A stretch of 64,000 nucleotides of DNA from a virus, in the IMG/VR virus record IMGVR_UViG_3300020187_000009, positions 62,001-126,000 of that record. One strand, written 5' to 3'. The stretch's first letter is position 1; each line of letters opens with the position of its first letter. Below the pieces are notes generated by a model. It made no database searches. It had not been told where the DNA came from and saw only the letters and a program-made list of their open reading frames with translations. Positions 21,729 through 62,346 of the stretch are shown here, one piece after another. The position numbers and the translations under genes are program-made.

Positions 21729-22001
21729 ATGAGCAAAATTGAACAATTCGTAGAATTATTTTCAGAGTTTGATTTAGAAGTAGTTCTTACTCGGGAAATA
21801 AGACAAACCGCAAATATTAGTACTAGTGATAAAACAGTATCGGACTTAAATAAATCTTTAAAAAGATTAGAAAAAGAGTACAAGCAAGCTGTAAAATCAT
21901 TCAAGGCTAATAAAATTACAAAACATGAGCTTTATGAATTCGAATGGAGGCTATTCGAAATTCAAGAAGAAATTAGAAGAGTAAAAAATAGAGATTCATG
22001 A
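21729..22001 (+). CDS. Coiled-coil protein, 90 aa
   Basis: The second half is a charged heptad helix (LNKSLKRLEKEYKQAVKSFK...). The first half is acidic (IEQFVELFSEFDLEVVLTRE). No named domain. It overlaps the Nudix gene by four bases. Confidence 0.65.
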   Translation: MSKIEQFVELFSEFDLEVVLTREIRQTANISTSDKTVSDLNKSLKRLEKEYKQAVKSFKANKITKHELYEFEWRLFEIQEEIRRVKNRDS

Positions 22002-22477
22002 AAAAATTAAAGACATTAGATCAGTTTACTAATGAAGGTATAGTAAAAACTTCAGCTGGTCTAGCAATTATCTTTGATGGAAAGGTATTGTTAGGACATA
22101 CTACAGGCAGAAACTTTAAAACAGGTTACGGTATTCCAAAAGGTGGAATTGAGACTGGAGAAACTAACATTGAAGCAGCGATTAGAGAAGTTAAAGAGGA
22201 AGTAGGAGTAAATGTATCAAAAAAAATGATTACTTCTAATTCATATCAGTTTGAGGTTAACTCTCAGTGGGGCAGAAAACTAGTACATTATTTTATTGTT
22301 AAAATTAATGATCTATCAGAAATAGGACTTAAAGAACTTAAAGTACCAAATTCAAGACTACAGTTAGAAGAAATTAACGATGCTAGATTTTTAGATTTAA
22401 AGTCAGCAAAGAGCTTAATAATGAAGAGTCAGGTAACAGTAATAGACAATTTACAAAAATTAGGACTATTAAAATGA
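21998..22477 (+). CDS. Nudix hydrolase with capsid-targeting-like N-terminus
   Basis: Residues 49-71 contain a full Nudix box (G-x5-E-x7-R-E-V-x-E-E-x-G-V: from GGIETGE to REVKEEVGV). Such enzymes hydrolyse nucleoside diphosphates linked to another moiety (8-oxo-dGTP, ADP-ribose, NAD or RNA caps). The first 14 residues MKKLKTLDQFTNEG match the N-terminal pattern of the predicted capsid-targeted proteins in this window, with a possible cut after Glu13. If so, the enzyme would be packaged and injected. Substrate unknown. Confidence 0.85.
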   Translation: MKKLKTLDQFTNEGIVKTSAGLAIIFDGKVLLGHTTGRNFKTGYGIPKGGIETGETNIEAAIREVKEEVGVNVSKKMITSNSYQFEVNSQWGRKLVHYFIVKINDLSEIGLKELKVPNSRLQLEEINDARFLDLKSAKSLIMKSQVTVIDNLQKLGLLK

Positions 22478-24285: not shown

Positions 24286-24390
24286 AATCTTCACGTCTTT
24301 CCTATTTAAGATATGTTTGTGGTGAACTTTCTTTGGAAAGCGTGGAGATTTTTTAAGATATATACTATAACCACAAATATATCTTAAATA
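24286..24390 (+). promoter_or_regulatory. Structured leader of the GIY-YIG gene with two interleaved inverted repeats
   Basis: Arm A (24286-24302) pairs with A' (24335-24350), which is followed by a T-run, so it can act as a terminator. Arm B (24303-24323) pairs with B' (24370-24390, 21 bp, one mismatch), ending two bases before the start codon. The order A-B-A'-B' means the two hairpins exclude each other or form a pseudoknot. B' pairing would bury the start region. T4 homing genes are also known to be silenced by hairpins over the start. Confidence 0.6.
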
Positions 24391-24392
24391 CA

Positions 24393-25196
24393 ATGATCAA
24401 TAACCCAACAAACCAACCCTATTTTTACGTAATTACCAACAAAGCAAATGGACGCTATTATTATGGTTCAGGCATATCTGATGGATATGAAGGTTCTGGT
24501 AAAGTACTCAAAAGAGCTTATAAAAAATATGGTAAAGAATCATTCGAAGGAAAGATTCTAAGGCTATTCAATACAAGAGAGGATGCTTTCGAATTCGAAG
24601 GTAGATTTCTATCACTCTATAAATTAGATCAGGATCCAATTGCATATAATGTATGTCGAAACGCTAATGGCGGGTATATCTCTGATGAAGCCTATGTAAA
24701 GAACTCTAAGTTTATGAAAGAATATAGACAAACTAAAGAGGGCTCATTAGGTGGTCTTAAAAATCCACGTGCTAATCAAACAATATATGAATTCTACAAT
24801 ATAGATACTAGAGAATATCGGAAGGCGACTCAACATGAGATGAATCAAAGGGTTGGGGGTACTGGAGCTTCGATGTTTGGTTATGTTGTACGAGGATCTT
24901 ATAACATATATAAGGGTTGGATATTATTCTCGAACTTTGAGCTATTTGGTACGAGAGATAAGTTAAAGGCACAGACATCTAAGAATATATCTAATGCCAA
25001 TAAAGGTAAAAAGAGGCCTAAAACATCAGCCTTGAAGAAAGGAGTTAAATTATCTGAAGAACATAAACTCAACATAAGTAAGGGTATGCATGGACGTACT
25101 CAGGTAAAAGTAACATGTCCACACTGTGGTAAAGTTGGAGGAGCAACATTAATGACCAGATATCACTTTGAAAAATGTAAACATAAACAATTATAG
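24393..25196 (+). CDS. GIY-YIG homing endonuclease
   Basis: The N-terminus has YFYVITNKANGRYYYGSG (residues 10-27), the GIY-YIG strands, then a KYGKESFEGKILRLF segment and FEFEGRFLSLY with the catalytic Glu. After ~100 residues there are DNA-binding modules: a NUMOD-like part (YEFYNIDTREYRKATQHEMN), a NUMOD3-like SNANKGKKRP and SEEHKLNISKGMHG, and a C-terminal zinc finger CPHCGK...H...C. It is free-standing and flanked by 19-bp direct repeats, so it probably entered this site as a mobile gene. Confidence 0.9.
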   Translation: MINNPTNQPYFYVITNKANGRYYYGSGISDGYEGSGKVLKRAYKKYGKESFEGKILRLFNTREDAFEFEGRFLSLYKLDQDPIAYNVCRNANGGYISDEAYVKNSKFMKEYRQTKEGSLGGLKNPRANQTIYEFYNIDTREYRKATQHEMNQRVGGTGASMFGYVVRGSYNIYKGWILFSNFELFGTRDKLKAQTSKNISNANKGKKRPKTSALKKGVKLSEEHKLNISKGMHGRTQVKVTCPHCGKVGGATLMTRYHFEKCKHKQL

Positions 25197-25210
25197 AATT
25201 CGATATATAA
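25192..25210 (+). repeat. Right copy of 19-bp direct repeat flanking the GIY-YIG gene
   Basis: Identical to 24262-24280. It begins inside the endonuclease stop codon region and supplies the box GATATATAAT (25202-25211) to the phosphatase gene at 25239. Confidence 0.85.
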
Positions 25211-25211
25211 T
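25202..25211 (+). promoter_or_regulatory. Late-promoter-like box GATATATAAT
   Basis: Ends 27 bases before ATG 25239. Part of the right direct repeat. Confidence 0.5.
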
Positions 25212-25238
25212 AAATAGTAAAAAATATTGATTACGAGC

Positions 25239-25790
25239 ATGCTAAAAGAAAAATACACAACTGATAAAATCTTAATTTTCGACATCGATGACACTATTTT
25301 TATCGGAAGCGCAAAAATCATAGTAACCGACTCTAAAACCGGTAAAACTTTCTCACTAACTCCAGAAGAATTTAATGATTATGAGAAAAATCCAAAGCAT
25401 ATAATTAATTTTGACCAATTCAAATCTTTAGAGATTATGAAGGCTGGAAAGTTAATCGACAAGTATTTTAGTATTCTTAAAAAGAATTATAATAAAGGAA
25501 TTGCTATCGGAGTAATAACAGCACGTGATGATCAAAATATGATTTATGAATGGCTAAGGTATCATGTAGGATTTCATATTGATAAGAAATTAATTTGGGC
25601 AGTTAACGACCCAGTACATGGCCTAAAGGGAAATATACAAGAAAGAAAACAAGATGCAATGAAATGGTTCATTGAACAGGGATACACTGATATCACTTTC
25701 TTCGATGATGATAAAAACAACATAAAATTAATAAAACAACTAGAGAAGGAATTAGGAGTTAATCTGAAGACCCATCTAGCTAAAAAGTAA
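25239..25790 (+). CDS. HAD-superfamily phosphatase, 183 aa
   Basis: I take ATG 25239 over the TTG four codons earlier. HAD motifs are clear: ILIFDIDDTIF (motif I, residues ~12-22), GVITARDDQN (motif II Thr), and DITFFDDDKNNIK (motif IV). A 60-residue cap-like insertion separates motifs I and II. This resembles the phosphatase half of T4 polynucleotide kinase and phage 5'-nucleotidase-like proteins. The substrate may be a nucleotide or a nucleic acid 3' end. Confidence 0.78.
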   Translation: MLKEKYTTDKILIFDIDDTIFIGSAKIIVTDSKTGKTFSLTPEEFNDYEKNPKHIINFDQFKSLEIMKAGKLIDKYFSILKKNYNKGIAIGVITARDDQNMIYEWLRYHVGFHIDKKLIWAVNDPVHGLKGNIQERKQDAMKWFIEQGYTDITFFDDDKNNIKLIKQLEKELGVNLKTHLAKK

Positions 25791-25794
25791 GAAC

Positions 25795-27402
25795 ATGAGT
25801 ACATTTAACGACATCAGAACTAGATTTGAAATGGCAATGGATAAGAAAGCCATCAATGAGGCTAAAAAAGTGGTTTGGAAAGAAACAATGAAAAAAGCTT
25901 ATTTTAATCTATATCCTGAAGGTAAAGGAGGAAGATGGATTAATCCAAGCGGAACTGGAGAAATCATGAGAGCTTATTTTATAGGTGATAATCCTGAGGA
26001 AGAAATTGAGAAATTCTTAGAACTAAACGGAGTTAAAGCCGAATATTATGGTGGATATCTTAAAACTTCAAATGCTTCTGGTAGTTTCGATTCTTGGGAA
26101 ATTACAATGAACACTAATTGTAATTGGTTTGGAAAAACCCTAGAATCTGGAGAAACTTACTATATAATTAACGCAAGAAAAACTTCATCAACAACTTCGG
26201 GAGACACTGTAGCCGCTATCGGCGATAAAGATACAACTCCGAATAAACTTGAAATTACCGATATTCAATATCCGACGAAATTACAGGCAATAGATGCTAC
26301 TAAACAATCTATAAAGGCTAAAATTAATGATCAGGATTGCGTTGCATTCATGAATGAATTAATTGATGTTGTTAATAATTTCAAAACAACAACTGTCAAA
26401 GAGGCTAAGGATTTAGCAAACAAAAACACTTCTTATACAATTACACATGATTTCTCAAAATATACAGATATTATTGATAGAGTATCAGTATTAAATATTG
26501 CTAAAGATTTTGGAGAAGTCCTAGGAGGTATATTAATGTTTAATCTAACTGATAAACATGGAGCTGGTCTGTTATTTCCTGAAGCATCTAATGAAGCTGT
26601 TGTCGATTTTAGATTTGATAAAATGGATGTTTCTTCAAAGGCTGGTAAAAAAGGAGCAACTCCCTCAGCGTCAGGTTACTTGAATAAACTGAATGACGCT
26701 ATAGAAATGAAAGACTGGAAGCTTAATAAAAAAGAGGCTAACTTCATTGAAAACTTTAGCAAAGTTATTTTAGCTAAACAGAGCGAAGCTAGTAATACAA
26801 GATATTGTAAAAGAACTAGAGGTTCAGGTACGTTTAGTAGTACTGTAACTCTATTAAATAATTTTAAGATAAAATCTTGGAACTATTGGGCTTCACAAAG
26901 TGGAATGCCAACTCAAAATATCGGAAGGGACGATATTATTCATTCGTTTGTTCAATTAAAAAAGGATAAAAAACTCCACGCAACTTTAAACTCTTTTTCT
27001 AAAATGGTTGGAGGTTTAAAAGGTAACTCTGGAGAAAAATCATCAGCAGGAGCAAAAATGACTGCAAAGTTTTTGTCTACTAAAAACGAAGAAGAAGCTG
27101 TTAAAGTATTAGATGAGATATTAAAAATAGATAAAGCTCCAATATACGATGTGTTAGTAGGTACGGTAATTTATGGATCAACTAAAGAGTTAGTTCCATT
27201 ATTAAACAAAGAATTTGGTGAAACTATGTCTGGATTAATTAACATGGCATTTTCAGCTAAACAATTATATCTAGATATGAACATTAAAAAAGGATCTTTA
27301 ATATTCACAATGAAATCTATGAAAACATCTGAATTTGAAATTAAAGGATTAAATGGAGTAGATTCTTGGATTACAAAGGGTCTAGGCATATCAATGAAGT
27401 AG
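25795..27402 (+). CDS. Large protein with possible PD-(D/E)XK nuclease core, 535 aa
   Basis: The start MSTFNDIRTRFEMAMDKKAINEA ends in INEA-K (given here with the first residues), which could be a prohead-protease site. In the middle, FGEVLGGILMFN, then LLFPEASNEAVVDFRF and DVSSKAGKKGATPSASG follow the E...(V)-D-F...-S-x-K order of type II restriction-like nucleases. The remaining 270 residues are helical and unassigned. It opens the block of likely internal virion proteins. Both the nuclease and packaging ideas are inference. Confidence 0.45.
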   Translation: MSTFNDIRTRFEMAMDKKAINEAKKVVWKETMKKAYFNLYPEGKGGRWINPSGTGEIMRAYFIGDNPEEEIEKFLELNGVKAEYYGGYLKTSNASGSFDSWEITMNTNCNWFGKTLESGETYYIINARKTSSTTSGDTVAAIGDKDTTPNKLEITDIQYPTKLQAIDATKQSIKAKINDQDCVAFMNELIDVVNNFKTTTVKEAKDLANKNTSYTITHDFSKYTDIIDRVSVLNIAKDFGEVLGGILMFNLTDKHGAGLLFPEASNEAVVDFRFDKMDVSSKAGKKGATPSASGYLNKLNDAIEMKDWKLNKKEANFIENFSKVILAKQSEASNTRYCKRTRGSGTFSSTVTLLNNFKIKSWNYWASQSGMPTQNIGRDDIIHSFVQLKKDKKLHATLNSFSKMVGGLKGNSGEKSSAGAKMTAKFLSTKNEEEAVKVLDEILKIDKAPIYDVLVGTVIYGSTKELVPLLNKEFGETMSGLINMAFSAKQLYLDMNIKKGSLIFTMKSMKTSEFEIKGLNGVDSWITKGLGISMK

Positions 27403-27403
27403 C

Positions 27404-27571
27404 ATGAATTCAGAGGAATGGAAACATTATGTAGATGTTGGAGAAGTACCATATCATTTCTTTATATCTATGGTAAACACTATTAAAGAAGGAGGCAAAC
27501 TAAATAGCCAACATATTGCAGTATACTCTTCACATGCCCGAATCATCGAATTTTTATTGAAACAAAAATAA
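27404..27571 (+). CDS. Hypothetical protein, 55 aa
   Basis: ATG 27404 (one base after the preceding stop) to TAA 27571: MNSEEWKHYVDVGEVPYHFF and an Ile/His-rich end. Small, unrecognised. Confidence 0.55.
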   Translation: MNSEEWKHYVDVGEVPYHFFISMVNTIKEGGKLNSQHIAVYSSHARIIEFLLKQK

Positions 27572-27611
27572 AAACGTAAATATAAGTTCTATAATACAAA
27601 CAATATAAATT

Positions 27612-27821
27612 ATGGAAAGTATATTTAAAAAATTCTTGCTAGCAATAATAGCACTATCTGCAATATCTCTAATAATGGCATTACCAACACAGTGGTTATG
27701 GAACAATTTTCTACTGAATGCTGTAAATGGAGTTAACCCAATTGGATTCTGGCAAGCGCTGGGAATTAATGTATTGTCTTCAATTCTCTTTAAAGGCTCA
27801 AACAATAATTCTAAAGAATAA
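27612..27821 (+). CDS. Small membrane protein, 69 aa
   Basis: Two hydrophobic segments: FLLAIIALSAISLIMALP (residues ~7-24) and IGFWQALGINVLSSILF near the end. The sequence style (TQWLWNNFL...) resembles short phage membrane proteins of unknown role. Confidence 0.65.
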   Translation: MESIFKKFLLAIIALSAISLIMALPTQWLWNNFLLNAVNGVNPIGFWQALGINVLSSILFKGSNNNSKE

Positions 27822-27824
27822 AAA

Positions 27825-28145
27825 ATGGAAGCAGTATTAATACTTATAATGTCTTCGATTGCTGTTATTTTAGTAGTGTCTTCTATGTCTAACATGTCAA
27901 AAAACACAGTACCTGGACATAAGACTTATAAATTCATAAGTACATCAAGTGAGACATATCTAATCCGTGCAGGATTGCTCTCAGATGCAAAAAAAGAGGC
28001 TAAAAAGATTGAAAAGATGCACAGCGTCGAATGGGATTTAATCGATGAACTAGATGACAACGGAGATAAAATAAGAACTCTTTATAAAAAACCAAAAACA
28101 AAGAAGACACTGAGTTTATCAAATAAACAGGGTAACGTTAGTTAA
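27825..28145 (+). CDS. Membrane-anchored hypothetical protein, 106 aa
   Basis: One N-terminal membrane segment (VLILIMSSIAVILVVSSM) followed by a basic soluble domain with a KKEAKKIEKMHSVEWDLIDE stretch. Function unknown. Confidence 0.65.
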   Translation: MEAVLILIMSSIAVILVVSSMSNMSKNTVPGHKTYKFISTSSETYLIRAGLLSDAKKEAKKIEKMHSVEWDLIDELDDNGDKIRTLYKKPKTKKTLSLSNKQGNVS

Positions 28146-28212
28146 ATTAGATATATAGTATGTGAAATCATGTACGTTCACGCATAACCTCAAAAAAAGC
28201 TAACTAAAAACA

Positions 28213-28398
28213 ATGAAAGAACCTATTTCAGAAGGCAAAATCACAATCGAAGAAAAGCAAATTGCGACGGAGCCTATTGGAATAGAAGAAACGAAAGTTT
28301 ACGAGAAGAAAGCACAATACATCGTAAATCTAGAAGAACTTCTAGACACAACAGGCGAAGATGCACATTGGTATTTCGGAGTAGGTGGTCCAGCTTAA
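28213..28398 (+). CDS. Hypothetical acidic protein, 61 aa
   Basis: Glu/Lys-rich protein with a C-terminal DAHWYFGVGGPA. It has a long leader and a strong terminator immediately after, so it is probably its own transcript end. Not recognised. Confidence 0.6.
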   Translation: MKEPISEGKITIEEKQIATEPIGIEETKVYEKKAQYIVNLEELLDTTGEDAHWYFGVGGPA

Positions 28399-28462: not shown

Positions 28463-29059
28463 ATGAAAAAAGTAAAATTATTTGAAGATTTCATTAGTGA
28501 AGAATCTAGCGGAGATATATTTAATCCAAAGCGTAATAAGAAAGTCAAGTTTGATCATAAGAAACATCCAGAATTAGCGGGTGAATTTTTTGATTTAATA
28601 TCTACAGCGTACTCTGTAATTGGAGGCCATGCTAAAATTAAATCGCCAGAAGATGTATTCGCTGATCCAGAATGGAATTACTGGGAGGGCATCGATATAC
28701 ATGGTGATAATGACTTCGATATTATAATGTTTGGTAAGAAAACAAGATTCGGTATTAAATACTCAGGAGTTGGGCATGATGGAACGCGAGATGCTAAAAG
28801 AAAATACATAGGAGAACGTGGAAAGGAATTAAATAATCTGGGATATTATATTGAAGTTTCAGGTAAACTAGCAGACATCTTAATGGACTCATATGACGTA
28901 CCTGTTGTTTCAGAACATGAAGTAGTTGAAAGTGTATTGGGTAAGAAAGTTAAATGGATTGGTAAAAAAGATGATGGAACTTCAGGTGCTGGCTGGTATT
29001 CAAGAAAGCTTGGAGGTTCTTTACATGATAAAATACTACTAGGAAGACCTAAAGTATAA
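28463..29059 (+). CDS. Predicted capsid-targeted internal protein, 198 aa
   Basis: Starts MKKVKLFEDFISEESSGD, matching the capsid-targeting-like N-terminus of this phage (cut expected after ISEE or ISE). The mature part has an acidic patch and HDGTRDAKRKYIGERGKELN, but no assigned fold. It lies at the head of the internal-protein block with its own late-type box. Confidence 0.6.
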   Translation: MKKVKLFEDFISEESSGDIFNPKRNKKVKFDHKKHPELAGEFFDLISTAYSVIGGHAKIKSPEDVFADPEWNYWEGIDIHGDNDFDIIMFGKKTRFGIKYSGVGHDGTRDAKRKYIGERGKELNNLGYYIEVSGKLADILMDSYDVPVVSEHEVVESVLGKKVKWIGKKDDGTSGAGWYSRKLGGSLHDKILLGRPKV

Positions 29060-29065
29060 AGTAAA

Positions 29066-29144
29066 TTGTTAACAACTTTATAAAATTAAATCACTAAACA
29101 GTTTTTTATATCAATTAAATTGTTTATATTTATACTATATAATA
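29066..29144 (+). promoter_or_regulatory. Promoter module, class II (TATATCA type)
   Basis: TTGTTAACAACTTTATAAAA, then AACAGTTTTTTATATCAATT and TTGTTTATATTTATACTATA. It ends 11 bases before ATG 29155. Confidence 0.7.
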
Positions 29145-29154
29145 ATAACAGATA

Positions 29155-29640
29155 ATGAAGATAGCATATTTACATGGACTAGAGTCCTCAATTGATCCCA
29201 AAGATCCTAAAATAATATTTTTAAACGATAATTTTGATGAAGTATATACTCCTTCGATAAATTACAAGGATAATTCAACCTTTAGTAGATTATTAAATGA
29301 TATTAGTAAAATGAAACCTGATATCATCGTGGGTTCTTCAATGGGCGGATATATTTCTTATTTAATAGGTTCTAAACTATCAATACCAACACTCTTATTT
29401 AATCCAGCAGTTGTTGGTAGAACATTCGAGCCTAATACCGATGACTCTATTGGTTCAACAGGAACAAAAAATTCAGTTTATTTTGGTAAATCTGACAAAA
29501 TTATTGATAGATATGCAGTTAAAAAATACTTAGAAACTGAAGGAGTAGGTACCTTTAAGTACTCTAAATACACTGGAGGACATAGAGTTCCTGCTGATGT
29601 ATTTATAGATGCAATTAAAAAGACAACAGGTATTAACTAG
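29155..29640 (+). CDS. Alpha/beta hydrolase (YqiA/UPF0227-like esterase)
   Basis: 161 residues. IAYLHGLESS is the oxyanion-hole strand, IIVGSSMGGYISYLIG (residues ~59-74) the nucleophile elbow with Ser62, FGKSDKIID the acidic turn and GGHRVP the catalytic His. This is the small YqiA-like esterase type. It may act on a thioester or carboxylester; the phage role is unknown. It is expressed from a module promoter, so probably earlier than the surrounding internal proteins. Confidence 0.8.
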   Translation: MKIAYLHGLESSIDPKDPKIIFLNDNFDEVYTPSINYKDNSTFSRLLNDISKMKPDIIVGSSMGGYISYLIGSKLSIPTLLFNPAVVGRTFEPNTDDSIGSTGTKNSVYFGKSDKIIDRYAVKKYLETEGVGTFKYSKYTGGHRVPADVFIDAIKKTTGIN

Positions 29641-29649
29641 ATATATAAT
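29640..29649 (+). promoter_or_regulatory. Late-promoter-like box GATATATAAT
   Basis: Overlaps the hydrolase stop codon and ends 25 bases before ATG 29675. Confidence 0.5.
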
Positions 29650-29674
29650 AAAGATAATAAAAAACAAACAACAA

Positions 29675-31582
29675 ATGAGTTTTATCAATTTTAATAATAG
29701 AAAAGAGGATTCTTCGCCGACGTATAGCGCCGATGTGATTAAAGAGGCTCTTAATCTTGTAGAGACTAAGAACACTAACAGGATTGAAAAAATGCTAGAA
29801 GGTGTTAATACACCTCTTTCCCTAAATGAAGCACTTACTTTTTTTACAACAGGTAAAATAAATGCTATGGTTGCATTAACAACAGCAGCTGTCGCTTTCG
29901 AAAGTGATCTTAACCTTCCAGCTGAAGAGCTAGAAAGCGATCTAGAAGATACTACACCAGAAGTTAAAGATGCTGATGGTAAAAAATACGTTAAGGCTGA
30001 AGACAGATCTGAAGAGACTGAAGAAGTTGAAGATGAGTTGGTTGATGGCGAAGATGGAGCTAAAGAAGTAGCTGAAGGTGATCTTAACCTTCCAGCTGAA
30101 GAGCTAGAAAGCGATCTAGAAGATACTACACCAGAAGTAGTTGACGCTGACGGTAAAAAATACGTTAAGGCTAAAGACAGATCTGAAGAGACTGAAGAAG
30201 TTGAAGATGATCTAGTTGATGGTGAAGATGGAGCTAAAGAAGTAGCTGAAGGTGATCTTAACCTTCCAGCTGAAGAGCTAGAAAGCGATCTAGAAGATAC
30301 TACACCAGAAGTTAAAGATGCTGATGGTAAAAAATACGTTAAGGCTAAAGACAGATCTGAAGAGACTGAAGAAGTTGAAGATGAGTTGGTTGATGGTGAA
30401 GATGGAGCTAAAGAAGTAGCTGAAGGTAAGATATCATGGGATTCTTTAATAGAAAAAATTAAAGGAACTAGCGAACATCATACCGATGACCCGAACGATA
30501 AATATATTGTTAAGCCATGTGATGAAGAAGGAACTCCATGGGCTGTTTGGGAAGGAGATGTTAGAGTAGAATGTTTTAAAACTGAGGAAGAAGCTGAAGC
30601 TTATGCTACAGAACAAAATAAAGAACAAGGATTAGATGAAGCTAAACCTGCTGGTCTTTCTAAAAAGGAAACTCTAAAAGTTGCACAGAAATTTGCAGAT
30701 GCTCTTACGAAATTAGATGGTATGAAATATACTGTTAGTTCTGATTATGAAGAAGATTCATTTGATTTAGATATTGAAGATCAAGACGATGTAGATCCTA
30801 GAATAACTGGAGAATACGCTGGAGGTTCATATAATATCAATGATGATGGTTCAGTAGTTAACATGGCAACATGGAATCGTAAAACGAATGTATCACCAGT
30901 TTATGGTAATATAGATGATGATGTTAAGACTATTATAAAGACTATTAAAAACTTAAAAGAATCAGTAGTTACTGAAGCTATTAAAGAGGTAACTCTTAGT
31001 AATGAGATATTAAATTTTTTAGAAGAACGCGGTGTAATAAAGGCATCAGATTCACAAAAAATTCATAAAGACTTAACAGCATTCTTAAAGAAAAACTTAA
31101 ATGAATCAGTAGTTACTGAAGCTAAAGATGATTTTATGGCAAAACATTCCGGAACTAATATTACCCTAAAGAAAGGTTATAAACACCACACTGAAGATGA
31201 ATTAACAGATTTATACAATAAGATTGGCGAATTAGTTAAAGATGATTTAAAGGTAAAGGATGTTACTATTGTTTTTGAAGCATTTTCTAGAATGGCTAGT
31301 GATACTGTAGAAAATGAATCAGTAGTTACTGAAGCTAAATTCTTTAGATTACCAAAACAATTAAATGCAATGTGGGAATTGAAAAACTCAGTTGATTATA
31401 TGGTTGGTAAGCACGATGCTGGTGATGATTATAAACCAGCCGATATGAAAACTATTGAGGAATTTATTAAGAAAATAAAGCAATCTGCTAAAGCATTTAA
31501 AGATGCAGAAGAAGTTAAAGGTACTGTATACGAAGAATTTGCTTCAGAAGTAAATGAAAGTAAAGTTACTAAAATTCAATAA
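29675..31582 (+). CDS. Predicted internal virion polyprotein with acidic repeats, 635 aa
   Basis: I use ATG 29675; an upstream in-frame ATG (29609) would overlap the hydrolase gene. Residues 78-251 are three nearly identical 58-residue acidic repeats, each ending KEVAEG. After a ~180-residue segment come three copies of ESVVTEA (residues 429-435, 477-483, 548-554), which fit the Glu-Ala/Gly cuts of prohead proteases. Cutting would release acidic peptides plus domains of about 48, 71 and 82 residues. T4 also yields acidic internal peptides from its scaffold. The scaffold or internal-protein role is inference. Confidence 0.65.
   Translation: MSFINFNNRKEDSSPTYSADVIKEALNLVETKNTNRIEKMLEGVNTPLSLNEALTFFTTGKINAMVALTTAAVAFESDLNLPAEELESDLEDTTPEVKDADGKKYVKAEDRSEETEEVEDELVDGEDGAKEVAEGDLNLPAEELESDLEDTTPEVVDADGKKYVKAKDRSEETEEVEDDLVDGEDGAKEVAEGDLNLPAEELESDLEDTTPEVKDADGKKYVKAKDRSEETEEVEDELVDGEDGAKEVAEGKISWDSLIEKIKGTSEHHTDDPNDKYIVKPCDEEGTPWAVWEGDVRVECFKTEEEAEAYATEQNKEQGLDEAKPAGLSKKETLKVAQKFADALTKLDGMKYTVSSDYEEDSFDLDIEDQDDVDPRITGEYAGGSYNINDDGSVVNMATWNRKTNVSPVYGNIDDDVKTIIKTIKNLKESVVTEAIKEVTLSNEILNFLEERGVIKASDSQKIHKDLTAFLKKNLNESVVTEAKDDFMAKHSGTNITLKKGYKHHTEDELTDLYNKIGELVKDDLKVKDVTIVFEAFSRMASDTVENESVVTEAKFFRLPKQLNAMWELKNSVDYMVGKHDAGDDYKPADMKTIEEFIKKIKQSAKAFKDAEEVKGTVYEEFASEVNESKVTKIQ
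29906..30427 (+). repeat. Three tandem 174-bp repeats inside the polyprotein gene
   Basis: Units start at 29906, 30080 and 30254 (GATCTTAACCTTCCAGCTGA at each) and are nearly identical at DNA level, with a few silent and conservative changes. Such repeats may expand or contract by recombination, or be collapsed in assembly. Confidence 0.9.
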
Positions 31583-31596
31583 ATATTGAATATAAA

Positions 31597-31872
31597 ATGA
31601 AATACATTAAATTATTTGAACAATTTTTAAACGAAGCAACTATACCAAAGGGTATGAAAAAGCAAGACTTTAAAGATGTTATTGACGGAGATCAGGTTGA
31701 GTTAATAGACAAAGGTGGTAAAAGATTTGGTTCAACTACCGAAGTTGATAATCATGAGGTTTTTTGGACTAACGGAAAGCAAAATCGTGAACTACTCCAA
31801 AAGATAGGTGAAATGGAGTTTATTAAACAACTCAAGAAAATCTACGACATTGACGTAAAAGAAGTAATGTAA
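31597..31872 (+). CDS. Predicted capsid-targeted internal protein, 91 aa
   Basis: MKYIKLFEQFLNEATIPKGM is a clear capsid-targeting-like start (cut after LNE). The mature ~77 residues are basic then mixed, with VIDGDQVELIDKGGKRFG. Size is like T4 internal proteins after processing. Confidence 0.65.
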   Translation: MKYIKLFEQFLNEATIPKGMKKQDFKDVIDGDQVELIDKGGKRFGSTTEVDNHEVFWTNGKQNRELLQKIGEMEFIKQLKKIYDIDVKEVM

Positions 31873-31885
31873 ATAAAGATAAATC

Positions 31886-32287
31886 ATGAAACATATTAAA
31901 TTATTTGAACAATTTATAAACGAAGCTAAAATGCTCTCATTTAAAGATGCGGGTATAACAGATATGATGGATTTAAGTAAAGCTATGGATGTACTTAGAG
32001 ATTCTAAAATTGATTGGAATCAAAAAGGACAGGCATTTGTTTTTGTTTCCTCAAAAGAACATGCATCTGCAATAAAAGCATTAGGGCTTGATGAATCAGT
32101 AGTTGCTGAAGGCTTAAGAAGCGATTTAAAGAAATATATTAAATCTAATCAAAAGCATTTAGATAATTTTGCAGATAACGAAGATTGGAACAGCTTGTAT
32201 ACTATGCTGCTGACTGATTTCGGAGTTGAAGACCACGAATCTAGTGAAGCCGATGAATTAAAGACTAATTTTAATATGGTATACTAG
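31886..32287 (+). CDS. Predicted capsid-targeted internal protein with one internal cut site, 133 aa
   Basis: Starts MKHIKLFEQFINEAKMLSFK (cut after INE) and contains ESVVAEG near residue 72, an internal site of the same type as in the two polyproteins. Processing would give two fragments of about 64 and 55 residues. Neither shows a known fold. Confidence 0.65.
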   Translation: MKHIKLFEQFINEAKMLSFKDAGITDMMDLSKAMDVLRDSKIDWNQKGQAFVFVSSKEHASAIKALGLDESVVAEGLRSDLKKYIKSNQKHLDNFADNEDWNSLYTMLLTDFGVEDHESSEADELKTNFNMVY

Positions 32288-33953: not shown

Positions 33954-34604
33954 ATGAAAAAGGTAAAACTATTTGAAGAGTTTGTCAACGAAGAATCTAT
34001 TTCATTTGATAAATCGGGTGTTAAATCTAAATTAAAAGACAAGGTTAGAATTGCCAAAATAGCTGTTGAAAAATGGGGCGGTAGTTATACAAAGGTTTTA
34101 AAGAACGCTGAAGCAGCTCTTAAGTCTGGTAAATTACCTAATTATAAAGAACCCTTAATGGTTCAAGGTGATGACAAACAAGACGATTATGATATATTTC
34201 GAGGAAGAAATTCTGTTAAATTAGCAGAGAAGATTTCTAAAGTAATTAAGAAGTATAAAAAATATGAAGTTGATCAGTCTTCGACTGGAGCAGCTGGTGG
34301 ATGGTCTGGTACAATGAGTTCTACTGTTGGCGGAGAAATTCAAGGTAGAGCAAACTTTAATCCAGGTGGTAGGAGAACCTACTTAATAGCAGTAACATGT
34401 GGGAGTGGGATTGATTCAAAAATTAAAGATAAAATGTTCCAAGAATTATATGAGTTGTTTTTTGTGATGGATCAATATAATTCATTAGATGGTGGAGTAA
34501 TGTTTGACTATAGTGAAGGTACAAATTACGACACTATTGGATTAACTAATGATTCTTATCAATTTGGAAACGCTGCGTCACTATCAGACATAATGAATAA
34601 CTAA
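33954..34604 (+). CDS. Predicted capsid-targeted internal protein, 216 aa
   Basis: Starts MKKVKLFEEFVNEESISFDK, nearly the same as 28463. The mature part has a Gly/Ser/Thr-rich middle (SSTGAAGGWSGTMSS) and acidic C-terminus. Fold unknown. The start lies one base after the previous stop. Confidence 0.62.
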   Translation: MKKVKLFEEFVNEESISFDKSGVKSKLKDKVRIAKIAVEKWGGSYTKVLKNAEAALKSGKLPNYKEPLMVQGDDKQDDYDIFRGRNSVKLAEKISKVIKKYKKYEVDQSSTGAAGGWSGTMSSTVGGEIQGRANFNPGGRRTYLIAVTCGSGIDSKIKDKMFQELYELFFVMDQYNSLDGGVMFDYSEGTNYDTIGLTNDSYQFGNAASLSDIMNN

Positions 34605-34608
34605 ATAT

Positions 34609-34821
34609 ATGAAACATACTACAGATTTTAACGAGTTTATTAATGAATCTAAAGAATCAGACGCATTAGCAAAGGGAATTAATAAAGCAATAATTAAAAT
34701 CGACGATTCAATGTCATATGAGGATTTTGCTTTAGCAGTAGGTAAAGTATTAAAAGACGAATACGGGTCTCACAATTACAAGGGATTTATGGAAGTCTTA
34801 CATAAAAAATTAGGAATATAA
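34609..34821 (+). CDS. Predicted capsid-targeted internal protein, 70 aa
   Basis: Starts MKHTTDFNEFINESKESDAL, a diverged capsid-targeting-like sequence (cut after INE). The mature 56 residues are a small helical domain. Its stop shares a base with the next ATG. Confidence 0.6.
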   Translation: MKHTTDFNEFINESKESDALAKGINKAIIKIDDSMSYEDFALAVGKVLKDEYGSHNYKGFMEVLHKKLGI

Positions 34822-36971
34822 TGAAATATATTAAGACAATAGAGGAACGAAGAGAAGATGTTGGTAAATACAACACTGTTAAGAAAGTAATTTCTAAATT
34901 AGGTAGAAGACCATCTGAACAAGATCTTGCAACATTTATTAATAATAACTATTATGATGTTACTGAAGTGGAACGAGGAGAAGACGATCCATCGGCAAAT
35001 GATAAAATAGCAGATTTAGTAGGATTTTACAAGTTTGATATTGATGATTGGGAAATTGCATGGGCTGATGCTCAAAACGAATCAGCAGTTACTGAAGCTA
35101 AGAATACTATTGGTCTAGCGTTTAAAGACGAAGATGATTATAATGGTTTTGTAGAATTTATTAAAGACGAAAAAGGTTCAATTAAAAAAGATTTTGGATG
35201 GGATTCTAAGACTAAGTCATGGGAAGTTATAATGGACGTTAAAGTTCTAGATAACATTTATGGTGAAGGAACTCCTAGTAATAAAGAGTCTGGATGGTAC
35301 GGAGGATTACCTGGTGATTTTAAATCGGTAATAATCGAATCAGTAGTTACTGAAGCTAGATTTAATTATAAAGAAACCGGTCTTAGTGGTCAAAATTTGA
35401 AAGATGTAAAAGACGGAATTACTGGAATTAAGAATGCACTTAAAAGAGGTAATGAATCAGCGGTAATATCAAACTATGATTTAGTGCAACAAAGATTACA
35501 ACAGTATGGTGGACCTAAGGCAAGTGAGTTTCTTAAAAAAATAAAACAACTAGCTGGACTGGATGAATCAGTAGTTACTGAAGGTAAAATGCCAAATAAA
35601 TTCATTGGAAACGATGAAATAGTTTTTCTTAAAACAAAAGATAATTCAAGAGGAGCACACTATAACCTATATTACAAAGGACACGATATTAATCTTGGTG
35701 GTCAATCATTTAAGAGTGAAAAGGATCTAAAGAGTTTTGCAGATAATTATATCCTGTCAATTCAGTGGTATAATAAACTAAAGTATGAAGATGCAAAACC
35801 TTTACCAGAATCTGTAGTTACCGAAGCTAAAGCATATAAGTTAAAAGCTTCTGAATTTGGTTCAAATACATTCTCAGCGGCATATAATGTAAAAGGCGAA
35901 ACTACTTGGAGAGTTCATAGTACTTATGCTATCGATCAAGTATCTGGTGAAAACAACCCAGAAGAAAGAGATGTAGTTTTCTTTGAGGCAATGCCTATTA
36001 ATAATGACATATACATTAAGATCGGTGGAATCAATAATCTTAAAAGAACCAATGGCGCTACAGTAGGTAATAACTTTGGTACTACGATTGAAGAATGGAA
36101 AAAGGATCCAAAAGGAATTGCAAAAGAAGCTTCTGAATTTCTTACTGATGCAGCACACCTTAAATGGATAAACAAAAAAGCAAGAAGTGAAGGTCAAACA
36201 ATTAAATGGGCCTTGAATGACGATTATTCTAGTGTTATTGAAGATCTAGTTAATAAATCATTAGGTCTTAGTGAATCAGGAGTTACTACAATTGATCAGG
36301 ACATAGAAAGGTATAATGTTATTAATAAAAATTCAGGTAAAGTAGTAGACAATAATTTGCCAATACATTTAGCTAAGAAATTTGCTGCAAAAAAGAAAGA
36401 ATGGATTATCCAGAAAGTAGATGGATCGGTAGTTACTGAAGGTAAAACATCAGCAATATATACAGATCCTAAAACAGGAAAGGGATATGATTTACAATAT
36501 GTTTCTGGTAAAAAGAGATGGGAACTTGATGTAATGAAGAAAGATGCTAGCATATACTCTAATGCAATCACTACAATAAAAAGAGGTACTCTTGCTGAAA
36601 TTCAAGAATGGTTAGATGGATATAAAATAGATTCTAGCTGGACTAAAGGTTTAAGTGAATCATTAAGTTTAAAACATGTTCTTAAACTAGATCAATTCTT
36701 GAATGAATCAAAAAGCGATTTTCAAGTTTATCACAATCAATATTCATCTGCAATTGATGAGGTTGAGAAATATGCTAATAAGATGGGTTACGATCTAGAC
36801 AATGGAGAGTATGGAAATGCATACGTTGATGGATTCTTTAAACCAAAAGATGGACAGACTAAGAAAGATACTCTAGCATTATATAAAAACGGTAAAGAAC
36901 AAAAGAAGGCAGTACACGTTCAAATATATGGTATGGGAAATAAATATGAATTAAACATGTACATTAACTAG
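34821..36971 (+). CDS. Predicted internal virion polyprotein, 716 aa
   Basis: The chain is divided by repeated cut-like motifs: ESAVTEA (87-93), ESVVTEA (173-179), ESVVTEG (249-255), ESVVTEA (330-336), a degenerate ESGVTTI (485-491), GSVVTEG (535-541). Near the C-terminus KHVLKLDQFLNES (618-630) is an internal copy of the capsid-targeting N-terminus. Cuts after each Glu would release about seven pieces, mostly 75-95 residues, the size of small globular domains. The pieces are not alike, so this is a string of different proteins rather than a simple repeat. No fold is assigned. Confidence 0.7.
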   Translation: MKYIKTIEERREDVGKYNTVKKVISKLGRRPSEQDLATFINNNYYDVTEVERGEDDPSANDKIADLVGFYKFDIDDWEIAWADAQNESAVTEAKNTIGLAFKDEDDYNGFVEFIKDEKGSIKKDFGWDSKTKSWEVIMDVKVLDNIYGEGTPSNKESGWYGGLPGDFKSVIIESVVTEARFNYKETGLSGQNLKDVKDGITGIKNALKRGNESAVISNYDLVQQRLQQYGGPKASEFLKKIKQLAGLDESVVTEGKMPNKFIGNDEIVFLKTKDNSRGAHYNLYYKGHDINLGGQSFKSEKDLKSFADNYILSIQWYNKLKYEDAKPLPESVVTEAKAYKLKASEFGSNTFSAAYNVKGETTWRVHSTYAIDQVSGENNPEERDVVFFEAMPINNDIYIKIGGINNLKRTNGATVGNNFGTTIEEWKKDPKGIAKEASEFLTDAAHLKWINKKARSEGQTIKWALNDDYSSVIEDLVNKSLGLSESGVTTIDQDIERYNVINKNSGKVVDNNLPIHLAKKFAAKKKEWIIQKVDGSVVTEGKTSAIYTDPKTGKGYDLQYVSGKKRWELDVMKKDASIYSNAITTIKRGTLAEIQEWLDGYKIDSSWTKGLSESLSLKHVLKLDQFLNESKSDFQVYHNQYSSAIDEVEKYANKMGYDLDNGEYGNAYVDGFFKPKDGQTKKDTLALYKNGKEQKKAVHVQIYGMGNKYELNMYIN

Positions 36972-38005: not shown

Positions 38006-39961
38006 ATGGCAAGAAAGACATTACAACAATACGCTATCTTATTTCAACAAAAGGGTATACCAGCATCTATGTATACTGGTATAAATGGACAATGGATGCC
38101 ACTTCTTCCGGGATTATTAGGAAGACCATTGTCGCATGATGAAATGGACTACAATTTAGAACTTTCAGACGAGACAATTAAAAACTATAAAGTAGCTAAT
38201 TTTATTGAATCTACACAGGTTGAAAAGTATCTAAAATTTACAGAAACTAATGGTACATATGAATGGACGTTAGATATTCCAAACGCTGACGGAACTTCTG
38301 GAACTTCTGGAACGTCAGGAGTTGATGGAACTTTTTTTGGGACACATGGAACAAGCGGAACAGACGGAAGCGACGGTGCTGCTGGAAACGACGGTACTGA
38401 TGGAACAAGCGGAACAGACGGTTCTGTCGGTGCTCCCGGATTACCTGGAGAGTTTTTTGGATCAAGTGGAACAAGCGGAACAGATGGTGCACAAGGAGAA
38501 CCGGGAATTGATGGAGCTTTTTTAGGTACTCATGGAACTTCAGGTACTGATGGAGAGCAGGGAGAGCAGGGAGAGCAGGGAGAGCCTGGAAAGCCTGGAG
38601 AGTTTTTTGGATCAAGTGGAACAAGCGGAACAAGCGGAACAGACGGAAGCGACGGTGCTAATGGAACAAGTGGTAAAACAGGAGTTGCAGGTACTTCAGG
38701 TAAAGATGGTACTTCAGGTACTTCAGGAGTTGATGGAACTTTTTTAGGTACTCATGGAACTTCTGGAATTGATGGAACTTCTGGAATTGATGGAACTTCT
38801 GGAATTGATGGAACTTCTGGAGTTGATGGAACTTCTGGAGTTGATGGAACTTCTGGAGTTGATGGAACTTCTGGAGTTGATGGAACTTCTGGAGTTGATG
38901 GAACAAGTGGAATCCTAACAGGCGGCGTAGCATATGGTCAGATGTTTGAAATAAATGGAGCACCAAGACTTCTTGCCCTTAACACGTATGAAGGTTGGAA
39001 TACTGAAACTCTTGGAGAAGTAAGTGAATTAAAGCATGTTGCAGGTACTGGATCTGCAGCTTCAACGTTTGCTCCTAATATTAGGTATGCAGGAGTATAT
39101 CAGATAAATGTTCAATTGTCTTTAGAAGTAGATACTAATAATACAGATGTTTGGTGCGTAATTGAATTAAATGGTCTTCCGATAGCTTCAACTGAAGTTA
39201 GACGCGAGTTTGATTCTGGTAAAATTGGTTCGTTTGGTATAACGGAGCTAGTTGACTTAGCGGTAGGTGATACATTAGGAGTTTACTTTAAAAGAACATC
39301 TCCAGGAGCTGCAGTTAATTTTACTCCTATTAACTTTTCGTTTGACGTAGTTAAGGTTGTTGGTGTAGGAACACCTGGAACTAGCGGAACTAGCGGAGGA
39401 TCTGGATCTCCGGCAGGAGGAACTAGTGGACAAATACTTGAAAAAATAGACAGTATTGACTATAACACACAATGGTCTACCATAAACAAGTTAACGGGAG
39501 TTCCAACTATAATGGTACTTACGGAGCCGCTTGAGGTAACAGGAGATACTGATGTAATATTCGATTCATGGATTGACCATGATAGCCTTGGTAACAACGT
39601 CCGAACCGTACTGAATGGTGGTAACTTTAGAGCCCTTAACCTTATGGAAGCTGGAGAGTACATGATAGAATATTCATTTAAAATTGAAACACCAAGTGGA
39701 ACAGTGCCTACAAATTCTGCAATGCAGCTAAAGGAACTTAATGCGGGCAATGTATTCTCAACTGATCTACACGCTGTATCATCTGACACAAATTCCGACA
39801 TCAGACATGGTAGATTCATTTTTAGGGCAATTGGTGTAGGTAGTTGGCTAGTATACATGAACTTTCAGAAAGATGCAACAGGTATAAATGATGGTGTTAA
39901 CTATGTAATTTCAGAGCTATATCTTACAGCAAGCCATTTTAAACATGGTTTTACTACGTAG
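38006..39961 (+). CDS. Collagen-like tail fibre protein, 651 aa
   Basis: Residues ~1-90 look like a phage fibre attachment part ([14 protein letters not shown]). Residues ~95-310 are a collagen-like region built of Gly-x-y triplets, mostly [11 protein letters not shown] and GVDG. Two globular beta-rich parts follow (~311-455 and ~480-651), joined by another [10 protein letters not shown] linker. The C-terminal part is probably the receptor-binding or trimerising head. The many exposed Ser/Thr residues are candidates for O-glycosylation by the downstream enzymes. Confidence 0.82.
38756..38899 (+). repeat. Eight tandem 18-bp units in the fibre gene
   Basis: Three GGAACTTCTGGAATTGAT units (38756-38809) are followed by five GGAACTTCTGGAGTTGAT units (38810-38899), encoding GTSGID and GTSGVD. 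The near-perfect DNA identity suggests recent expansion and easy length change. Confidence 0.93.
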
Positions 39962-58433: not shown

Positions 58434-58457
58434 AAGGGAGTCTTCGGACTCCCTTTT
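58434..58457 (+). terminator. Intrinsic terminator with TTCG loop
   Basis: AAGGGAGTC (58434-58442), TTCG, GACTCCCTT (58447-58455), then TT. It separates the inositol synthase from the downstream operon. Confidence 0.9.
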
Positions 58458-58485
58458 ATAGATCATAATAATATAATAATAAAAA

Positions 58486-58854
58486 ATGGATATATTTGCA
58501 TACGATTTTGATGGTGTAGTTTCAATCGGAATTACCCCTCGATGGAGTGATGATATCATTATTACAGGAAGATGTCAAGAAGAGGCGCCTTACGTTTTTG
58601 ATAAATTATCAGAGATGGGGGTTACTACTAAAGTTTATTTTAACCAAATGACACTAGCAGAAAGAGGAGACCATACTGTCAATGCTAGAACATACTCAGG
58701 AAAACATAAAGCTAAAACTATAAGTGAATTAGCCGAACAGGGCATTAACGTTGTTAGATTTTTTGAAGACGACCCTGTACAAAAGGCGATTATTGAAGAG
58801 AATCATCCAAACCTAGACGTGGTACATGTAGTATCAAACTTAGTACAAAAATAA
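58486..58854 (+). CDS. HAD-like protein, 122 aa
   Basis: FAYDFDGVVSIG (motif I, D-x-D), IIITGRCQEE (motif II), and VVRFFEDDPVQKAI (acidic motif IV). A minimal HAD fold with a short cap. May be a phosphatase; the substrate is unknown. It starts soon after the inositol synthase terminator. Confidence 0.72.
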   Translation: MDIFAYDFDGVVSIGITPRWSDDIIITGRCQEEAPYVFDKLSEMGVTTKVYFNQMTLAERGDHTVNARTYSGKHKAKTISELAEQGINVVRFFEDDPVQKAIIEENHPNLDVVHVVSNLVQK

Positions 58855-58861
58855 AATAAGA

Positions 58862-59530
58862 ATGCTAGACCCAAAACAAAGATCAATCTTAAAAAAGAGA
58901 TATGTTAAAGAATTAAATGCACAGGAAAGTGTAGATAAAGATATGATTTCAGAATCAATTAAAAACTACATCAAGCCAGAAGTAGATTATCTAAATAAAG
59001 TATGTTTAGATCTAGGTACTAATATAGGAGCTTTTACTAAAATAGCAATAGAAGGAGGAGCAAAGAGAGTGTATGGTATCGAATGCGACTTTAGAAACTA
59101 CAACATAGCTGCTAATAATTTTGCAGCTTCGATTCATGCTAATATAATTCATGCTGCAGTATCTGGATCTACAGAAGATACTCTTAAAATATACAAATCA
59201 AACGCTAAAAGTAACCATAGCTCAACATCTATTATTAAAAGAAGAGGTACCTTTAATGAATATGACGACGTTAAAAATTACCATATTGACCATCTGTTAG
59301 AAGAGATTAAGCCAGATATTATTAAAATTGACATCGAAGGAGCAGAGTATGATATAATAGAAAGCGTGCTCGAATATAAACCAAGTATATTGTTTATTGA
59401 ACTACATGGAAACCATGATCAAGCAAAGTCTGCAGTACAGAGGTTTACCGAAGCTTATAAAACATCAAACATAGAAGAGATCATTATATTTCAAAAAGTT
59501 GGAGGATATGATTGTCTATTTATAGATTAA
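58862..59530 (+). CDS. FkbM-family SAM-dependent methyltransferase, 222 aa
   Basis: VCLDLGTNIGAFTKIAIEGG (residues ~51-70) is the SAM-binding motif I, RVYGIECDFRNYNIAANNF motif II, and DIIKIDIEGAEYDIIESVLE the FkbM D-I-E-G-A-E motif. FkbM enzymes methylate sugars or small molecules. It may methylate the glycan encoded elsewhere in this window or a base precursor. Confidence 0.87.
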   Translation: MLDPKQRSILKKRYVKELNAQESVDKDMISESIKNYIKPEVDYLNKVCLDLGTNIGAFTKIAIEGGAKRVYGIECDFRNYNIAANNFAASIHANIIHAAVSGSTEDTLKIYKSNAKSNHSSTSIIKRRGTFNEYDDVKNYHIDHLLEEIKPDIIKIDIEGAEYDIIESVLEYKPSILFIELHGNHDQAKSAVQRFTEAYKTSNIEEIIIFQKVGGYDCLFID

Positions 59531-59544
59531 AATATTAATATAAT

Positions 59545-60597
59545 ATGGCAGATAATATGAGAGCTCTTGTTAACATGGAGGTTGTCGATCGAATAGGTTA
59601 TTTTTTTAACAAAGTTAATGAGAGATCTGAATTAAATTATGGATATAGAGATTCATATGACAGTGAAGGTGATGCAGCTCTTGGAGAAACTGTAGAGTAT
59701 TTTCATCCTCATATATTATATGATGATCGTATGAGATATATTATGGATAATATCGTGTTATCTGATATGTCGATGAATAATATTATTTGCAACACGATAA
59801 TATCCCACTTTTATGGAGCTAGAGGAATTCACCAGATTCTAACAAGAAACTCAGATCCAAAAACAGCTCTAGTAGATTTTGAAAGACTTTTAAAAGACAA
59901 GGAATACGAAACTGAAATCAGAAAGAATATTGATGACGCAATATCACTAGGACTTGGAGTATACGGAACAACTGAACTTAGAACCAGCCTATATGGAGCT
60001 TCAAATACTTGGGTTTCTGAAACCAGACAAACTGAACGTAATGCAGATAAGATTAACATATTACTTTGGGTTGCTGGATTTATACCTAGAGGAATTACTA
60101 GACGAATGGCTGGCGTTAACTCTTTATCGGAAATGTTCGATATATTAACAACAATTGAAGGAGTAGGATCCTATTATGGATATCATTGCTCAACTTCTAA
60201 TTCAGTTAACCCAAATATATCAATAAACCATGACGAAAGATTCTGTGTACCTGGACCTGGTGCTAGAATGGCGCTAGACATGATGTTTGGAGAGGGTTGT
60301 AAAGTACCACATGGTGATAGAGTAATTTGGTTTAGAGAAAACTATAAAGATCTTATTGGAGAAATTCCACTTAACGAAAATGAATGGAATAAGGTGGTTA
60401 ATGGAGTGAAGATATTTGCTGATGATCAGAACGAGCTCAAAACATATGGATGCGAAGTTGGTCTATGTCAGTTTGGAGTTTATACTAGACTAAGTAACAA
60501 TTCTAATTTAATTAACAAACGAAAAGTTGCTAGGGTTGATGAAAACATAATGCAATATTTTTTTAACAATAACTTCTCACAGGGTAGTTTGTTCTAA
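59545..60597 (+). CDS. Protein resembling alpha-glutamyl/putrescinyl thymine pyrophosphorylase, 350 aa
   Basis: The N-terminus (IGYFFNKVNERSELN) and the middle helical part lead to a helix-hairpin-helix-like IEGVGSYYGYHCSTS followed by FCVPGPGARMALDMMFGE. This order recalls the aGPT-PPlase families described by comparative genomics in phages with hypermodified thymines, which derive from a DNA-glycosylase-like fold. The match is from memory and partial. With thymidylate synthase and dUTPase nearby, a DNA base modification role is a fair hypothesis. Confidence 0.42.
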   Translation: MADNMRALVNMEVVDRIGYFFNKVNERSELNYGYRDSYDSEGDAALGETVEYFHPHILYDDRMRYIMDNIVLSDMSMNNIICNTIISHFYGARGIHQILTRNSDPKTALVDFERLLKDKEYETEIRKNIDDAISLGLGVYGTTELRTSLYGASNTWVSETRQTERNADKINILLWVAGFIPRGITRRMAGVNSLSEMFDILTTIEGVGSYYGYHCSTSNSVNPNISINHDERFCVPGPGARMALDMMFGEGCKVPHGDRVIWFRENYKDLIGEIPLNENEWNKVVNGVKIFADDQNELKTYGCEVGLCQFGVYTRLSNNSNLINKRKVARVDENIMQYFFNNNFSQGSLF

Positions 60598-61500: not shown

Positions 61501-61820
61501 TGCTAGCAGATAAAGATTTACGTAGAATAGACCAGGATATGGTGCGCCTTAAATATGTTCTAAATATACAAGAAGAGCTTCCAACATATCCTGATCATTT
61601 TGATGTGCTATGGGTAATTATTAATGAAGCAATTAAGAGACCAGACCGCCAAAAAGACACGTTCGGACAGTTAGGTTTTTTTAATTATCATTCATGCGGA
61701 AATGTCGAAAACGCAAAGCAATCAATACAGAAACTATTAGAACTAGGATGGATCGAGCCCGCAAAAACAAAAGCAGGGCACGAATCATACCGAATATTAC
61801 ATAACCCCTTTATTAAATAG
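61500..61820 (+). CDS. Hypothetical protein, 106 aa
   Basis: A helical protein with a possible winged-helix-like C-terminal half (AKQSIQKLLELGWIEPAKTK). Unrecognised; lies between dUTPase and thymidylate synthase. Confidence 0.65.
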   Translation: MLADKDLRRIDQDMVRLKYVLNIQEELPTYPDHFDVLWVIINEAIKRPDRQKDTFGQLGFFNYHSCGNVENAKQSIQKLLELGWIEPAKTKAGHESYRILHNPFIK

Positions 61821-61822
61821 AA

Positions 61823-62340: not shown

Positions 62341-62346
62341 TAAGAA

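Follow-up and report, generated by a model that had tools for sequence, protein, structure and literature searches.

A 716-residue protein of a T4-like phage as a likely precursor of several small internal head proteins

RNA viruses are well known for polyprotein processing. In phage T4, by comparison, one gene encodes one internal protein, from which a propeptide is removed: the internal proteins carry a 10- to 19-residue capsid-targeting peptide, and the prohead protease gp21 cuts after L/I-X-E (PMC9026906). C-terminal processing is expected for T4 gp21 as well, and the core proteins gp22 and gp67, which are cut by gp21, have several sites per chain, the resulting pieces being scaffold fragments that are mostly discarded (PMC9026906). 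The giant phages SPN3US and phiKZ have a gp21-type prohead protease and head cargo. Their ejection proteins bear long propeptides and are in some cases cut at several places (PMC5694885, PMC7411985); as reported, these additional cuts fall within the propeptides, leaving one mature product per gene. Finally, polyvalent proteins (Iyer et al. 2017, PMC5512222) combine many domains in one chain, are strongly mosaic, are predicted to travel with phage DNA and were likened to polyproteins by their authors; they contain recognizable enzyme domains and often an embedded peptidase.

We analyzed a stretch of 64,000 nucleotides (the window), corresponding to bases 62001-126000 of a 148,784-base IMG/VR record, which encodes a 716-aa protein, P0001, in which a motif close to ESVVTE(A/G) recurs. 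We consider it likely that P0001 is the precursor of several small internal head proteins of a T4-like phage, cut by an S77 protease, although the cutting, as well as packaging, ejection and effector roles, is inferred. As for T4 IPI, IPII, IPIII and Alt, this system comprises small diverse proteins with an N-terminal peptide ending in [ILV]xE↓A/S/G (the arrow marks the putative scissile bond throughout), an S77 protease and a cargo that varies among relatives (PMC9026906). The targeting peptides resemble those of T4 in position, in length (13 vs 10-19 residues) and in their xE↓A/S/G end (PMC9026906). Unlike in T4, however, several modules are found per chain, joined by a repeated internal linker and shuffled between phages, and, while gp22 and gp67 also have several sites, the pieces here look like separate exchangeable domains. 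P0001 meets the description of polyvalent proteins as having 2 to 15 different domains in one mosaic chain, but no domain of polyvalent type (zincin peptidase, ART, helicase, etc.) and no embedded peptidase was found in it, and its linker points instead to a prohead protease acting in trans. Each of these known systems shares a part of what is seen here. In the open-access literature that we searched, we found no account of a chain in which exchangeable domains are linked by recurring sites of the prohead-protease type, an absence that is not proof.

Segments and motif copies of P0001

P0001 consists of a nine-residue N-terminal peptide followed by eight segments, with the following features (window coordinates).

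34821..36971, + strand: P0001, 716-aa polyprotein (ORF; no Pfam or confident PHROG match)
34821..34847, +: MKYIKTIEE↓, degenerate N-terminal capsid-targeting peptide
34848..35096, +: module 1, residues 10-92, recurring in 10 or more other contexts
35079..35096, +: site 1, ESAVTE↓A
35097..35354, +: module 2, residues 93-178, in other orders in L017, L018, L027 and L028
35337..35354, +: site 2, ESVVTE↓A
35355..35582, +: module 3, residues 179-254, helical by prediction
35565..35582, +: site 3, ESVVTE↓G
35583..35825, +: module 4, residues 255-335, in L017 at ~55% identity
35808..35825, +: site 4, ESVVTE↓A
35826..36290, +: module 5, residues 336-490, ending in a degenerate ESGVTT
36291..36440, +: short segment, residues 491-540, with site 5 at its end
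36423..36440, +: site 5, GSVVTE↓G
36441..36707, +: module 6, residues 541-629, ending in the capsid-targeting-like LKHVLKLDQFLNE↓S
36708..36971, +: module 7, residues 630-716

A sequence-only reading had described a 716-aa ORF with the motif at residues 87, 173, 249, 330 and 535, separating stretches that are not repeats of one another. Both claims held. The motif copies starting at these residues are ESAVTEA, ESVVTEA, ESVVTEG, ESVVTEA and GSVVTEG, respectively, the last having G in place of E at its first position, and at the DNA level all five form a single five-copy, 28-nt family. Four of them match the pattern ES[VIATL][VI][TN]E, for which 20,000 composition shuffles gave a mean of 0.0012 matches and a maximum of 1. 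Self-BLAST returned only short matches (E ≥ 0.045), several of which are the motif itself. Two elements extend the earlier list: the degenerate copy ESGVTT at residue 485, and the buried capsid-targeting-like peptide LKHVLKLDQFLNE↓S at residues 617-629, an internal copy in addition to the degenerate N-terminal peptide MKYIKTIEE↓R; in many neighboring genes the targeting peptide is clear. Because its P1 residue is Thr, ESGVTT is probably not cut, and with one linker decayed in this way not every joint is maintained.

Support is uneven along the chain. Module 5 recurs at 89-93% identity in L015, L016, L017, L018, L022 and L023, and module 7 is found both within a 462-aa protein of phage Melnitz and, at L056:10321-10626, as a stand-alone 102-aa protein with a full targeting peptide (MKKVKLFEEYVSE↓S...). 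This stand-alone form, together with the worn copy of its peptide that P0001 retains, LKHVLKLDQFLNE↓S, points to an origin by fusion of internal-protein genes. Modules 3-4 and residues 489-618 are poorly supported, since scans with these single segments returned no relatives from viral contigs.

We modeled residues 1-340 and 327-716 with AlphaFold2, using the alignments A3 and A6 since the full-length 34-row alignment, like two smaller ones, misaligned fragments. With thin alignments, mean confidence was 50.8 and 51.5, respectively. All P0001 sites lie in low-confidence stretches between better-predicted segments (module 7, ~73-90; module 3, ~61-87; module 1, ~58-72). A single continuous fold burying the motif, which would have spoken against the sequence-only reading, is not what the models show, but this is weak support: given the low mean confidence and thin alignments, the models cannot prove separate domains. 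They were also too weak for fold searches, which gave no reliable match for either model against the PDB or for one against a viral library. Almost no assignments came from scanning P0001, its sister proteins and ~30 relatives against Pfam and PHROG; P0001 had no match, and in relatives the only domain above its cut-off was DUF5824. No module has a fold or function recognized by Pfam, PHROG or fold searches.

Head genes, sister polyproteins and targeting-peptide genes

The genome is T4-like, encoding a portal protein (phrog_213, 1.3e-71), a Gp23 and an S77 prohead protease. The major capsid protein Gp23 is P0003 (Pfam 6.7e-43; contig 26879-28264), whose top named relatives include those of Prevotella Lak phages and Tenacibaculum phage PTm1, making a Bacteroidota host likely but not shown. 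A gene for the protease is present: the 615-aa P0002 matches Peptidase_S77 (Pfam 2.4e-13) and the head maturation protease family phrog_207 (3.2e-41), and corresponds to an S77 prohead protease of the gp21 type, with a scaffold-like region fused to it. S77 is found in 15 of 24 long related records, the same 15 that match gp23; one of these gp23 matches is a sub-threshold fragment at a contig end, and all 14 records with a confident gp23 also encode S77. Related records with neither may be fragments. A 236-kb relative contains, besides its main prohead protease, a second short S77 match in a 132-aa frame (G014:C1:156418-156672).

The C-terminal tail of P0002 carries a linker-like site, MITE↓SK. 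A site of the form [VIL]xE↓[SAK] occurs in the tail of 13/13 protease homologues (MVNE↓S, MITE↓AK, MVTE↓KK, etc. in 12), most proteases of this group having V at P3 there, too. In this group, KLYE↓[DEN] or a close variant of it is retained in gp23.

P0001 is not the only protein of its kind in the genome, in which ~15 ORFs start with a peptide of the form MKHIKLFEQFINE↓A.

Window 29609..31582, +: P0005, second polyprotein, 657 aa, ESVVTEA at residues 451, 499 and 570 (true start perhaps 29675)
Contig 29066-30814: third polyprotein, 582 aa, several motif copies, one gene after gp23
Window 31886..32287, +: 133-aa protein with a single motif copy: MKHIKLFEQFINE↓A, a module, DESVVAE↓G, a second module
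Window 28463..29059, +: capsid-targeting-peptide protein, MKKVKLFEDFISE↓
Window 31597..31872, +: capsid-targeting-peptide protein, MKYIKLFEQFLNE↓A
Window 33954..34604, +: capsid-targeting-peptide protein, MKKVKLFEEFVNE↓
Window 34609..34821, +: capsid-targeting-peptide protein, MKHTTDFNEFINE↓S, its stop overlapping the P0001 start
Window 21998..22477, +: Nudix hydrolase with capsid-targeting peptide MKKLKTLDQFTNE↓G
Contig 58443-59927, 61395-62549 and 950-2791: apparent targeting-peptide enzymes besides Nudix

An acidic stretch of ~58 residues is present three times in P0005 and once, 93% identical, in the protease-scaffold protein (contig 24337-26184). The recognizable enzymes with apparent targeting peptides are the Nudix hydrolase, a RimK-type ATP-grasp protein and a poly(A) polymerase or CCA-adding-type protein, a cytidylyltransferase-like protein being a weaker candidate; if they are packaged, the phage would inject nucleotide, NAD or tRNA repair enzymes at time zero. 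The 582-aa polyprotein ends, in its C-terminal third, with a long KGTSGKD(E)GTSG repeat, which resembles, in its letters, a GTSG collagen-like protein encoded at window 38006-39961.

Linker equivalence, module shuffling and linker DNA

When aligned at the putative bond, the linkers read [VILF]-x-E-S-V-[VI]-[TN]-E↓[AGSK]-K and the targeting peptides L-F-E-Q-F-[ILV]-N-E↓[AGSK]. P1 is Glu in 93/98 sites, even though Glu was not required in the search, and it is followed by a small residue or Lys; P3 in the linkers is mostly V, as against L/I in the published T4 consensus. The targeting half, MKHIKLF, is absent from the linkers, which share only the cut-adjacent half. Moreover, the same module starts right after the Glu whether it stands behind an internal linker, ESVVTE↓, or an N-terminal peptide, MKHIKLFEQFINE↓. 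We found this equivalence, with the two settings aligning exactly at the putative scissile bond, in 18 different N-terminal contexts. Examples are MATFEEFLNE↓RNITLKRRYTENHP vs ESVVTE↓SKITLKRRYTENHP, MKKVKLFEQFIQEVKLELNE↓GIFDSIADPIKALH vs ESVVTE↓GIFDSIADPIKALH and, in P0001 itself, MKYIKTIEE↓RREDVGKYNTVKKV vs ESTVSE↓KREDVGKYNTVKKV. In the last case, the module concerned is module 1, which ESTVSE↓ precedes in L025 and MKHISLFEQFTAIAVELVNE↓ precedes in L017. That the same module starts in both settings, which is shown, is the strongest evidence that the linker is an internal counterpart of the cut site; that it is cut remains inferred.

The modules are also shown to be shuffled. IMG/VR holds several dozen such proteins: three protein scans gave 54 loci (L numbers), and, with near-duplicates removed, we retained 28 polyproteins, this genome's three among them, which measure 348 to 1315 aa and have two to nine sites each. 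A scan with the linker DNA returned at least 118 stretches, and in 74/78 new loci, on contigs of up to 236 kb, the motif is in an open frame. All-against-all comparison revealed shared blocks of ~80-160 aa, up to 98% identical, that occur in differing order and in different proteins and end at the motif. Modules of ~86 aa are found again at 91-98% identity, their ends lying at -6 to -8 and +1 relative to the site. Residues 196-281 of the 582-aa protein, for instance, reappear in L068 (149-234, 98%), L053 (218-303, 95%), L063 (612-697, 94%) and L064 (524-611, 91%), while module 1 of P0001 is present twice within L017. Among the 28 polyproteins, 237/620 internal alignment ends fall at the motif, a sixfold excess over the 38.7 ± 11 (maximum 78) expected when motif positions are rotated at random in 2000 trials. 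Since alignment ends are not independent, this ratio counts more than any p-value.

Among named phages, tblastn with P0001 matched only Melnitz phages, by module 7 alone, and P0005, L134, L090 and L068 as queries matched nothing; nor did the 21-base linker pattern match host genomes (genome_contigs). No cultured phage carrying the complete architecture was found. In the cultured Melnitz-3 (L069, MZ577098, 3110-10696), Methylophilales phage genes adjoining replication genes have modules in common with this system and targeting-like N termini (MQGFKTFLSE↓A and MKKFSEIIE↓A). At another locus, L088:536-4549, the module at residues ~599-699 matches stretches within annotated portal, prohead protease, head morphogenesis or major capsid proteins of haloarchaeal viruses and a Roseobacter phage, and coil-containing proteins of Vibrio phages; its presence in annotated head proteins fits a head location.

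Conservation of the linker extends to its DNA. Among polyproteins retrieved by protein similarity, its six codons show 96% mean identity, vs 81% (maximum 85%) in 200 codon resamplings, with the Val codons being GTA then GTT at 95-96% each. The conserved stretch is ~21 bp long, with no conservation beyond its edges, and the variants ESVVNE and ES[ATLI]V retain identical codons. A near-palindrome in this DNA, TCAGTAGTTACTGA, was considered as a recombinase site causing the codon bias, and rejected because variants that break the palindrome keep the same codons. We explain the uniformity by common descent and exchange at the seam rather than by selection for a palindrome. The linker may serve as a seam for module exchange; that the seam drives recombination is an inference.

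The putative precursor and alternative explanations

In the mechanism we propose, P0001 would be translated as one chain, from an open frame whose start overlaps with the end of the targeting-peptide gene before it, and would enter the prohead core via its degenerate N-terminal peptide, the internal peptide near residue 617 or the affinity of its modules. The gp21-type S77 protease would then cut after Glu in E-S-V-[VI]-[TN]-E↓[A/G/S/K] linkers and in FLNE↓S, as inferred from the site pattern, the linker-peptide equivalence and the gene content. Six or seven independent domains would be freed at a fixed ratio, would stay with the packaged DNA and, by inference from T4, would probably be ejected with it to act on the host. 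The linker would have arisen as the internal version of a capsid-targeting peptide's cut end, and its near-constant ~21 bp would act as a homology seam at which phages exchange modules, gaining, losing and reordering them. Cleavage, entry into the head, ejection, any effector function and exchange at the seam are all inferred, no proteomic data showing either cutting or presence in virions.

The idea of a prohead-cut polyprotein of internal proteins put forward in the earlier reading is supported, with cleavage itself inferred from sequence; the protease it requires is encoded here and co-occurs with gp23 in relatives, and the comparison with related phages was clearly positive, segments being shuffled and linkers kept. 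"Designed" protease sites was the wrong wording, the linker being a reused DNA seam, and "effectors" is unproven, no module having a known function.

The best-surviving alternative, which we regard as unlikely, is that the chain stays uncut, as a multidomain internal or early protein whose linker is a recombination seam and flexible joint. In its favor, the linker is conserved as DNA, the codon bias persisting in variants with other amino acids, and phage N4 packages its virion RNA polymerase, a multidomain protein, without processing it (PMC5512222). However, a pure DNA seam would not require Glu at P1 (93/98), coincide in register with the cut end of targeting peptides or match the tail of the protease itself. 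Less probable still is that the linker is a docking peptide for scaffold or protease, allowing multivalent packaging, instead of or besides being a cut site. T4 targeting peptides do act by core binding (PMC9026906), and several copies could raise affinity, but the linkers are without the targeting half and share the cut-adjacent half alone. The lack of virion data and of any known module function would allow a modular cytoplasmic, non-virion protein with an accidental resemblance to targeting peptides, but this is also very improbable. P0001 sits among several capsid-targeting-peptide genes, its 582-aa sister is found one gene after gp23, module 7 also occurs by itself behind a full targeting peptide, and there are 18 linker-peptide equivalences.

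If the precursor reading is right, a tailed DNA phage appears to use polyprotein processing for proteins carried in the head. By a narrow margin, we would also favor a bolder version taken as a whole, in which a widespread T4-like clade has an open-ended cargo cassette with a 21-bp seam encoding the prohead protease site: domains would be spliced in, packaged at a fixed ratio, freed in the capsid and injected at time zero, the arsenal being shuffled like beads inside single genes. A shared seam, at once cut site and recombination homology, suggests a mechanism for the fast turnover of T4-type internal proteins. ESVVTE↓AK would further be a sequence tag for reading hidden head cargo from metagenomes, module by module, which could expose anti-defense candidates acting in the first moments of infection.

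The protein encoded at window 829-1584 has a targeting-like N terminus, MKHIKLFEQFTNK↓A, in which the P1 Glu is replaced by Lys; by analogy with the T4 rule, it might be packaged yet uncut. In addition, other proteins contain a peptide (NIGGMGxVxLPxxxxGSGDxPxG) that resembles the N-terminal arm of gp23 as left by its presumed cut, in many cases directly behind xE (L009:4631-5215, L033:9797, L050:4056, L053:10315, L063:11645, L068:12318, L090:10017 and L140:3869); this is possibly a second head-related tag.
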